The translations under genes were made by a program, and so were the position numbers. Shown here in pieces: positions 143 to 54,557 of a DNA stretch of 64,000 nucleotides. The stretch is from a virus, in the IMG/VR virus record IMGVR_UViG_3300008997_000013, positions 1 to 64,000 of that record, one strand, 5' to 3'. Under the pieces are notes generated by a model. That model ran no database searches and was not told the DNA's origin. It worked only from the letters and a program-made list of their open reading frames with translations. Every line of letters begins with the position of its first letter. Positions within the stretch are counted from its first letter, which is position 1.

Positions 143-193
143 ATGGCTCAAGATTTCGGCACCGGCGTCTCTCGTACGCTCTCTGCTGCGGAT
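143..193 (+). repeat. Orphan copy of the virion gene's first 17 codons
   Basis: The translation MAQDFGTGVSRTLSAAD aligns with MAMNFGNGVSRTLSAAD at 1009-1059: 13 of 17 residues are identical, with visible synonymous divergence in the DNA. Homology stops abruptly after the AAD codons, where endonuclease sequence begins. This is the left boundary of the homing insertion. GC content of the two copies is similar (59% and 57%, hand count), so composition does not say which copy is older here. Confidence 0.8.
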
Positions 194-1009
194 CCTGTGC
201 AGTATCGTGGATTGGGGGGGGTTTATCGTCTCTGGGTCTCCCCCCACCATTTCTACGTAGGGAGATCCAGAGATCTTCTCTCCCGTATTCGACACCACAG
301 GAACTCCTTGTGTCGGAACGCCCATTCTAACCAACACATGCAGAACACTTTCAACAAGTACGGTGGTTTTCGGTGGGAAATCATTGCTCTTTCTGAGGAC
401 AGAGCAGAGCAGGTCCAAATCGAGAGAAGTGTGTTGGATGACCTCTACAGGACTTCTGGATGCTTGAACAAAAGTGATCGGGCTGTAGGGGGGTGTCGGA
501 AAGGTCCTCTGTCCGAGAAGACTAAAAAGAAAATCTCGGAAACCAAACAGAAGAACCCGTATCAAGCCACTCCCGAAGCTCGTGCTCGGATGAGTGCTGC
601 TGCGAGGGGACGCCCCAAAACGGCCGCACACGTCCGGAACAATGCAGAGGCTCAAAAGGGGAAGAAGTTGTCCCCGGAGACCAAACGGAAGATCTCTGAG
701 TCTCTGAAAGGCAGGAAGCCTTCTCCGGAAACTGTAGAGAAGATTCGAAAAGCGAACCTTGGGAAGAAACGCACTCCCGAGCAGAAGAGACGTCTAAGTG
801 AAGGGCAGAAGGGGAAAGTTCTCACGCCGGAACATCGCCAGAAAATATCCGAATCCCTCCGGGGTCGGAAACATTCCGAAGAGGCCCGGCGGAAGATGTC
901 TGTTTCCCAGAGAGGTCGTACTCACTCTGAGGAAACAAAAGCGAAAATTGCATCCGCTCGAAGAGCTTACTTCGAACGGAAACGAGCCCAAGCCCGCCCG
1001 GAGGCCTAA
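143..1009 (+). CDS. GIY-YIG homing endonuclease with NUMOD3 repeats
   Basis: 288 aa. A GIY-YIG nuclease domain lies at about residues 24-110 (GVYRLWV... FYVGRS... then a conserved N-terminal-domain arginine region). It is followed by about seven NUMOD3-type DNA-binding repeats of the kind 'SPETKRKISESLKGRK' to residue 275. The first 17 residues are not nuclease sequence: they match the start of the next gene product (FGxGVSRTLSAAD). The endonuclease is therefore fused in frame to an orphan copy of the target gene's 5' end and uses its start codon. Its TAA overlaps the ATG of the virion gene (TAATG), which couples the two. Codon use is AT-richer than neighbours, as expected for a mobile gene. 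Family assignment is firm; the cleavage site is unknown. Confidence 0.9.
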   Translation: MAQDFGTGVSRTLSAADPVQYRGLGGVYRLWVSPHHFYVGRSRDLLSRIRHHRNSLCRNAHSNQHMQNTFNKYGGFRWEIIALSEDRAEQVQIERSVLDDLYRTSGCLNKSDRAVGGCRKGPLSEKTKKKISETKQKNPYQATPEARARMSAAARGRPKTAAHVRNNAEAQKGKKLSPETKRKISESLKGRKPSPETVEKIRKANLGKKRTPEQKRRLSEGQKGKVLTPEHRQKISESLRGRKHSEEARRKMSVSQRGRTHSEETKAKIASARRAYFERKRAQARPEA

Positions 1010-53372: not shown

Positions 53373-53459
53373 ATGATGCCTCTTGAGATAGGCTGTCTAT
53401 TATTGTAGTACAGGTTTCTCTTTGGATTGCATAGACGTAATAGGCTTAGAGGAGTTCTG
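53373..53459. promoter_or_regulatory. AT-rich divergent leader between endonuclease and ligase
   Basis: Plus strand: GACGTAATAGGCTTAGAGGAG before ATG 53460, a variant of the leader motif. Minus strand: ACAATAATAGACAGCCTATCTC before ATG 53372. Lower GC than the resident leader at 52289, consistent with arrival together with the endonuclease. Confidence 0.5.
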
Positions 53460-54557
53460 ATGCCTACCGATATCCAGAACCTGGTTGACCGACTACTGAC
53501 CGCTTCGCGTGCGTACTATTCGGGGGAGAGTCTTATCTCTGATGCGGAATACGATGCACTCGAGAACCAGCTGCGGAAGCTGGATCCGGATCACGAGGCG
53601 CTGAGGCAGGTGGGGGCTCCCACGGACAGCGGCTGGCCCAAGGTCCCCCACACCCGCCCCATGGGTTCTCTGAACAAGGCCCAGACCGTCGAAAACTTCT
53701 ATGCCTGGGCGCGGAAGTACCCCGCCTCCGAGTACATTGCCACCGAGAAGCTCGATGGCATCAGCCTCTGCCTCGTGTATGAGAACGGCGAGTTGGTGGC
53801 TGCCCGCACCCGGGGCGACGGCACTATCGGTGAGGACATCACTCGCAACGTCCGCATCATGCAGGGTGTCCCTCCCGTTATCGCGGAGAAGCGAACCACG
53901 AACATCCGCGCCGAGATCATCTGCCGGAAGTCCCAGTTTGCCCTTCACTTCCAGGGCGACAGCAACCCCCGGAACACGGCGTCCGGGACGGCCAAGCGCC
54001 ACACCGGCTGGCAGAAGTGCCGCCACCTCGACGTGGTCGCTTACAACCTTGACGTCGAGGGCTACCGCTCGCTGAGCCGGACCGAGGAGCTGGACCTCCT
54101 GGTCGCCATGAACTTCCAGGTCCCCAACGCCCTGGTCCGAAGCGCCGGTGGCGTTGTCACCATGTATGGTGACTACATCCACGGGACCCGTGCCGGCCTC
54201 GACTACGACATCGATGGTCTGGTGGTTGAGATCAACACGACCGTCGACCGCGAGGCCCATGGCTCGCATGATATGCGTCCCCGAGCCGCCGTGGCATTCA
54301 AGTTCCCCCACGAGCAGGCCGAGACGATCATCCGTAACATCATCTGGCAGGTCGGGAACTCCGGCCGCATCACCCCCGTAGCCGTCTTCGATCCTATTCC
54401 CCTGGCGGGAGCTCAGGTCAAGCGCGCCTCCCTCCACAACGTCGCGCGGGTCCAGCACCTGCAGCTGGCGCCGGGCACTCGTATCCTGGTGAGCCGGCGC
54501 AACGACGTCATCCCGGCCGTGGAAGCGAACCTCGACCTGAACATTCGCGTCAGCTGA
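53460..54557 (+). CDS. ligA: NAD+-dependent DNA ligase, adenylation and OB part
   Basis: 365 aa from ATG 53460. Domain Ia '[20 protein letters not shown]' binds NMN; the catalytic lysine lies in 'TEKLDGIS' (KxDG); later nucleotidyltransferase motifs include '[15 protein letters not shown]', 'NPRNTASG' and 'DGLVVEI'; the OB fold has '[14 protein letters not shown]' and 'VKRASLHN'. The gene stops right after the OB fold; the zinc finger, HhH and BRCT parts are encoded by the next gene. Joins nicks during replication. The first 30 codons are AT-richer than the rest and an orphan older start lies upstream. Confidence 0.9.

Follow-up and report, generated by a model that had tools for sequence, protein, structure and literature searches.

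Phage endonuclease cassettes that probably replace the start of their target gene and strand the native one

Three loci of a phage genome fragment each contain an orphaned gene start, a nuclease gene, and the complete target gene, in this order. We consider it highly likely that each locus is a mobile cassette, consisting of an endonuclease and a foreign, diverged start of the target, inserted at the enzyme's cut site in the target gene. The native beginning of the gene would thereby be stranded as an orphan upstream of the insertion; the start copy carried by the cassette joins the native body in frame, so that the gene stays complete. Probably, with somewhat less assurance, these loci represent a class of natural home-and-rescue elements in phages, comprising at least three nuclease families and steadily replacing gene beginnings (rIIA, LigA, IF3, RuvC, NrdG, CCA-nucleotidyltransferase, portal, and gp15), of which T4 MobC would be an eroded member.

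Results

Duplicated gene starts flank three nuclease genes

The stretch of DNA analyzed here (the window, 64,000 bp) corresponds to bases 1-64000 of an IMG/VR record of 101,418 bp. The presence of rIIA, NAD ligase, DNA polymerase, and baseplate wedge genes, as well as many homologues of LR745208 (485 kb), indicates that it is part of a large phage. A sequence-only reading had described an orphan, a nuclease, and a complete gene, in that order, at 143/1009, 22966/24317, and 52344/53460, and the ORFs and sequences are as it claimed (Table 1). Using start-anchored protein alignments (BLOSUM62, 2000 shuffles per pair), we found that all pairs score far above shuffled sequences: 94 versus a shuffle maximum of 48 for rIIA (38-45 codons), 68 versus 32 for gene 1009 (17 codons), and 51 versus 37 for the ligase. 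None of the other gene starts in the genome comes near when aligned in this way with each orphan.

Table 1. Positions and assignments of the features at the window loci, the UTI-K1 locus, and the surveyed loci.
Locus	Feature	Position	Strand	Remarks
Gene 1009	Orphan, presumed native, start of 1779-aa structural gene	143..193	+	17 codons, in frame with endonuclease; 14/17 aa identical to codons 1-17 of gene 1009
Gene 1009	GIY-YIG/NUMOD3 endonuclease ORF	143..1009	+	PF01541 1e-5, PF07460 7e-19, phrog_314 homing endonuclease 1e-30
Gene 1009	Putative replacement start, codons 1-17 of complete gene	1009..1059	+	Start-anchored alignment
Gene 1009	Complete target gene, 1779-aa structural protein	1009..6348	+	LR745208 homologue, 41.5% over 99%
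rIIA	Orphan, presumed native, rIIA start	22966..23082	+	~38-39 codons; ends at stop codon of antisense nuclease
rIIA	PD-(D/E)XK-type nuclease, cysteine-rich N-terminal motifs	23080..24168	-	Antisense to rIIA; PF05367 below cut-off, phrog_945/phrog_9019, 1m0d E=0.003
rIIA	Putative replacement rIIA start, codons 1-45	24317..24451	+	Atypical codon use
rIIA	Complete rIIA gene	24317..26653	+	phrog_612 RIIA 6e-81
Ligase	Orphan, presumed native, start of NAD-dependent DNA ligase	52344..52415	+	~22-24 codons
Ligase	GIY-YIG/NUMOD3 endonuclease	52428..53372	-	Antisense to ligase; PF01541 1.5e-8, PF07460 2e-21
Ligase	Putative replacement ligase start, codons 1-24	53460..53531	+	Codon score 0.03 versus orphan 0.39
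Ligase	Ligase adenylation and OB domains	53460..54557	+	PF01653 1e-41, PF03120 2e-21
nrdG, UTI-K1	Endonuclease	L241 903-1739		Annotated as ribonucleotide-reductase activating protein
L047	CCA/poly(A) polymerase family (CCA-nucleotidyltransferase)			5′ case
L082	Portal-like			5′ case
L094	DHHA1			5′ case
L031	RuvC			5′ case
L172	Unknown protein			5′ case
L175/L179	IF3 (infC)			5′ case
L214	gp15-like			5′ case; antisense endonuclease

All three enzymes had been called homing endonucleases. The designation holds for two of them, in which GIY-YIG and NUMOD3 domains are recognizable, whereas the rIIA-locus enzyme gives weak PD-(D/E)XK-type matches, among them a resemblance to T7 endonuclease I. Because it matches no homing family by name, "homing" would in its case be a description taken from context. 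Relatives of this nuclease in three other huge phages lack an orphan. At the rIIA and ligase loci, the nuclease is antisense, and the orphan reads into its 3′ end. At gene 1009, the orphan is instead fused in frame to the endonuclease, reading MAQDFGTGVSRTLSAAD-..., a fusion that had been missed, and the endonuclease stop codon overlaps the ATG of the complete gene. This overlap (1009/1009) recurs as overlap or abutment with the target start codon in the other same-strand endonucleases inspected (L047, 3003/3006; L031, 2864/2867), and translation of target and endonuclease may therefore be coupled. In four cases (window 143, L031, nrdG of Paracelsus/UTI-K1, and T4 MobC), the endonuclease borrows the native start codon. 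Each nuclease ORF closes with its own stop, and the target gene is complete and unspliced downstream, which does not fit an intron or intein. An Rfam scan of the window and seven other loci gave no match, group I and group II introns included.

Some further features of the window were recorded. The ligase is encoded in two ORFs, with the HhH/BRCT half separate at 54601-55404 (BRCT 2e-8, phrog_3869 5e-45). The genes at 6832-7710 and 7711-8538 are an adjacent paralogous pair, 34% identical. A short ORF at 60531-60926, MSSKEWWVYVLQSLQ...GFFYVGATTDPLRR, resembles a small GIY-YIG domain; phmmer detected no similarity to homing enzymes.

Divergence and codon use of the two starts

Over all orphan/start pairs together, the synonymous difference is 0.76 and the nonsynonymous difference 0.31, with small counts in each pair; this pooled table took L172 in the wrong frame, and L172 in the right frame gives 0.59 and 0.26. 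The gene 1009 pair has pS 0.59 and pN 0.12. For the ligase pair, the values are 0.90 and 0.42, and the residues RLL-ASRAYY are retained although nearly all codons differ. The large excess of synonymous difference indicates that both copies have long diverged as coding starts, and hence that two genomes were joined, rather than that one gene was duplicated and one of its copies decayed. By this comparison, orphan and downstream start are xenologous. It is very improbable, then, that the start was tandemly duplicated in a single genome, with an endonuclease inserted between the copies and the orphan left to decay: near-saturated synonymous sites with residues kept are not the mark of decay. Such a history would, however, also give two copies around an endonuclease, and T4 alt.-1/-2, which has no endonuclease, is annotated as duplicating the beginning of alt.

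Codon use was scored against 12 long native genes of the window phage. The first 45 codons of rIIA score -0.23, the lowest among 42 gene starts; from codon 46 on, the gene scores +0.20, a native value, with +0.07 for the orphan and -0.17 for the nuclease. The foreign-like stretch of the start is thus about as many codons long as the orphan. The ligase-locus nuclease likewise has a low score (-0.18). The gene 1009 pair is without composition contrast (start 0.03, orphan 0.00). A foreign-like start, as proposed by the sequence-only reading, was seen at rIIA and ligase over about the length of the orphan, and gene 1009 does not follow this; the GC contents it had counted by hand (orphan/start, 61/50% for rIIA and 72/56% for ligase) were recomputed and are correct. 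The start of the complete gene looks foreign in these two of the three loci.

Relatives of rIIA, gene 1009, and the ligase, sought in viral contigs, were either the same phage or nothing. The LR745208 homologue of gene 1009 has a single start without a nuclease and lies directly after a gene whose end is like that upstream of the window orphan, and thus represents a syntenic empty locus; at 41.5% identity, its divergence is too great to polarize the two window starts. Within the window, we infer which start is native and which is foreign from composition and from analogy with the loci described below.

The window record is a metagenomic fragment, and assembly of two related phages into one chimera might be suspected. 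We regard this as the least probable of the alternatives and extremely unlikely: the gene 1009 and rIIA loci recur at 100% identity in a second IMG/VR record, and the same architecture occurs in cultured, annotated T4-like phages.

The orphan matches nuclease-free relatives

The nrdG gene of T4-like phages allows the two starts to be compared with those of close relatives. In Escherichia coli phage Paracelsus, an enzyme that opens with 13 nrdG codons is followed by the complete nrdG; the enzyme is HNH-like by eye, and Pfam gives only a weak I-HmuI NUMOD match. Against endonuclease-free RB14, the 13-codon orphan matches at 37/39 nt and the downstream nrdG start at 31/39, the latter matching the PM136 lineage at 37/39; the body is RB14-like again by about codon 26. 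Klebsiella phage UTI-K1 has a different orphan, and both orphans end ...FVN|DK. Compared with nuclease-free W2-7, its orphan matches at 37/39 and its nrdG start at 27/39, and from about codon 11-12, the body is 93-100% identical over the next ~25 codons. The RuvC locus behaves in the same way: relative to L110, whose protein is 82% identical, the L031 orphan matches at 29/33 nt and the L031 start at 23/33.

Pooled over the two nrdG loci and RuvC, the orphan matches endonuclease-free relatives at 103/111 positions and the start at 81/111 (Fisher p=1.3e-4, neighboring sites not being fully independent). Alignment with these relatives thus shows the orphan to be native and the complete gene to have a foreign start in the three tested loci, as had been proposed for the window, with rIIA and ligase codon use consistent. 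A single start resembling the downstream copy, the outcome named beforehand as speaking against the proposal, was not seen in any of these three loci outside the window. These comparisons also contradict tandem duplication, which is at odds with a better match of nuclease-free relatives to the orphan, at nrdG and RuvC.

Paracelsus-type cassettes at 96-100% identity are present in ~20 phages (chiefly Escherichia phages, but also some Shigella and Salmonella phages) and at 85% in about ten Klebsiella phages. The nuclease of the UTI-K1 cassette is misannotated, and the 13 codons taken over from NrdG are the probable reason. T4 itself may retain a remnant: MobC opens with MNYDRIY, which is NrdG residues 1-7, and nrdG lies directly downstream. 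Among 12 free-standing T4 endonuclease genes, mobC alone scores, at 35 against a null maximum of 34; its 7-codon orphan is not polarizable. The foreign-like tract of T4 nrdG extends to about codon 100. In PM136 and KM16, an ORF without an orphan start lies between nrdD and nrdG (L238 1659-2489 and L240 1659-2489); that of KM16 is GIY-YIG-like. The nrdG start in both is of the type seen in the Paracelsus cassette.

Nuclease and replacement start are shared as one block with fixed ends

Two phages with an infC cassette, L179 (3090-4199) and L175, have 1,110 bp in common with 3 mismatches. This block starts at the left end and takes in the endonuclease and codons 1-61 of infC. To its left are two different infC orphans, ~61% identical, that stop at the same codon (NPPV or NPLV, then IFF-stop); to its right, the infC bodies are 70-80% identical. 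A near-identical block between different flanks indicates that nuclease and replacement start behave as one unit of which both ends are fixed. At nrdG, comparison of Paracelsus with UTI-K1 gives a similar picture: the cassette nuclease is 85% identical, whereas identity falls to 44% over 300 nt of left flank and to 69% in the nrdG bodies. Judged from these alignments, the nuclease and the start are shared as a block with fixed ends. The cassette being common to L175 and L179 and the orphan not is contrary to tandem duplication at infC as well.

The conserved IF3 motif NPPVCKIM, which reads NPPVCRIV in a nuclease-free phage, is altered to NDIGVCKIM in the copy carried by the cassette, precisely where the cut site is presumed to lie. 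That the end of the orphan marks the cut site, as the sequence-only reading had suggested, is indirectly supported: at infC as well as at nrdG, the orphans of two different phages terminate at one and the same codon. The same reading had proposed that the downstream end recombines with a full-length foreign homologue carrying an upstream endonuclease and that the upstream end is joined without homology. Such a one-sided invasion would yield the same final anatomy; according to PMC2988022, T4 introns that home with little exon homology can do so by such one-sided, illegitimate repair at microhomologies, and the homology between orphan and start is weak (pS 0.76). One-sided invasion would, however, leave variable left junctions, whereas infC and nrdG orphans of different phages end at the same codon, cut off by the same cassette end; and the foreign tract stops near the cut site rather than at variable lengths, T4 nrdG being an exception. 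We therefore consider this course unlikely. The core of the repair idea stands; the left junction is the same within each of two unrelated phage pairs, which argues against upstream non-homologous joining in each event and favors two-sided homing in which the orphan serves as the left arm. A single ancient insertion followed by exchange of the flanking DNA could also give the shared infC and nrdG junctions.

Survey of endonuclease loci

We collected ~180 GIY-YIG endonuclease loci from IMG/VR, comprising relatives of the window enzymes and, later, of one enzyme from a case already found. The loci were ranked by endonuclease similarity, not by orphans, and their flanks were scanned for duplicated starts or ends. 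The null distribution was obtained by swapping flanks between loci (local alignment: 99% = 51, maximum 58 of 600; start-anchored alignment: 99% = 25, maximum 34 of ~1500). Start-anchored scores were far over the null at L047, L172, L094, L031, and L214 as well as at the window loci, and local alignment added L082 and infC. After removal of paralogues, repeats, and tRNA-like noise, about seven independent 5′ cases outside the window remained (Table 1), a frequency of ~5% of loci. A scan of genome contigs found no relative.

The orphan had been thought always to lie on the 5′ side. This describes all window cases and the approximately seven independent scanned loci, and the bias is strong but not absolute: at L212 (2063-3370), a single 3′ mirror case, the endonuclease is accompanied by a stranded C-terminal piece of an Acb2/Tad1-hairpin protein, possibly an anti-CBASS/anti-Thoeris protein. 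Outside the window, 5′ cases thus stand to 3′ cases at about 7:1, on numbers too small to be certain. With about nine further independent loci, the suggestion of a general strategy is borne out.

Several matches were rejected. LR745208 L021 was counted at first and then dropped, since two full paralogues sharing an N-terminal domain lie around its endonuclease. Matches at L192, L207/L208, L020, L081, and L033 are repeat or paralogous structural proteins, and those at L029, L039, and L055 are GC-rich frame noise. At L163, L166, L168, and L220, the flanks on both sides of a GIY-YIG endonuclease resemble translated tRNA genes (...GLEPPTF...), an arrangement that resembles that of T4 SegB.

The L021 locus demonstrates that paralogy can mimic the pattern, and the orphans might be small independent genes or N-terminal paralogues that lie beside an endonuclease by chance. 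For the accepted cases, we find this hard to credit: the orphans end abruptly at the nuclease, with no continuation; orphan and body joined give the family motif (IF3 NPPVCKIM, RuvC LDPSLT-YGWA, and LigA SDAEYD); and nuclease-free relatives have one copy.

Discussion

A model for homing with a replacement start

The cassette model accounts for these observations as follows. When a co-infecting phage brings an uninterrupted copy of the gene, the endonuclease would cut it, and the cassette would be copied in during repair, homology being provided on the left by the native start (the orphan) and on the right by the gene body. In the donor, the gene would be spared, because its site is interrupted and its new start is diverged, that is, recoded. 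A one-sided illegitimate event would be needed at most once, when a cassette was first formed. Such an element would work as an intron that rescues its host gene by a carried replacement 5′ exon instead of by splicing. We infer that cutting takes place at the end of the orphan, that the new start resists it, that recombination follows this pathway, and that the hybrid gene functions.

Relation to known mobile elements

The closest counterparts are mobile ORFs (mORFs) of fungal mitochondria, known from Allomyces atp6, Glomus atp6, atp9, cox2, and nad3, Rhizopus atp9, and Mortierella cox2 (PMC3630166). As in the phage loci, an endonuclease and a foreign, diverged piece of the target reside in the target gene, the native piece is orphaned beyond the endonuclease, and the hybrid is in frame. 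A foreign part of the target that accompanies the endonuclease and continues into the native rest of the gene is seen in the infC and nrdG pairs and in the codon shift of rIIA and ligase, and orphans matching element-free relatives are seen at the three loci outside the window (103/111 versus 81/111). The mORF enzymes are of LAGLIDADG and GIY-YIG families, whereas the phage cassettes have GIY-YIG, HNH-like, and PD-(D/E)XK-type enzymes. Moreover, mORFs replace the C-terminal piece and leave a 3′ orphan, whereas phage cassettes replace the 5′ piece in nearly all cases, replacement at the 3′ side being found in L212 only. New relative to the fungal mORFs are thus the occurrence in phages, the 5′ position, the several nuclease families, and direct evidence of mobility as a unit; the principle is known from mitochondria.

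"Introns with N-terminal duplication" have also been described in Tremella fuciformis mitochondria, where partial foreign gene replacement is ascribed to mobile insertions with a truncated host-gene copy (PMC7315562). These elements differ in being annotated introns and mitochondrial, and what is said there of how duplication length relates to the insertion site is easier to read as describing a downstream copy. Group I introns and inteins with homing endonucleases are also inserted at the cut site in a conserved gene, the interruption protecting the target; the phage cassettes, unlike them, have no splicing element, and it is the carried start that restores the gene. In synthetic home-and-rescue and cleave-and-rescue drives, the nuclease is inserted into an essential gene or targeted to it, and an accompanying recoded piece that resists cutting restores the gene (PMC7968924, PMC7951863). 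Those drives are engineered with Cas9, whereas the phage elements are natural and their recoding is the divergence of a homologue.

The passages of PMC2988022 on the T4 seg and mob genes describe free-standing, intronless endonucleases whose spread depends on break repair, in which flanking target sequence is co-converted. They name the nrdD/nrdG region as a target of seg and mob enzymes and list the MobC target as unknown; in contrast to the cassettes, the enzymes are there inserted between genes and cut a neighbor, and a stranded or replacement start is not mentioned in these passages. In the phage reviews and recent papers PMC2988022, PMC10448857, and PMC13096335, a word search gave no passage describing stranded or replacement starts in phages.

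If the class is real, it shows how essential phage genes that leave no gaps can be invaded by a selfish gene relying on neither introns nor inteins, and phage genes that are mosaic in their first 10-60 codons are accounted for. A stranded start is then a fossil of the insertion site, from which the cut sites of many uncharacterized endonucleases may be readable; this reading predicts a MobC target. The mobC/nrdG region is reportedly dealt with by Sandegren et al. in 2005, in work on SegH/Hef, and the duplicated nrdG start could already be mentioned there. Because cultured E. coli phages contain the elements, this natural analogue of home-and-rescue is directly testable. Cassettes also cause misannotation, the UTI-K1 endonuclease being an example.

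Insertions in LR745208

Polymerase and DnaB-like genes of LR745208 that look split were set aside as continuous ORFs with apparent inteins, not an orphan-start phenomenon. On the reverse strand of this genome (L018), the DNA polymerase gene (10035-15311) has two apparent inteins, and a 950-aa gene at 3334-6186, homologous to window 14585-16069, has one; the helicase gene also bears an insertion. At 25708-28024 of L018, the end of one ORF and the region preceding the next share a perfect 39-residue repeat.
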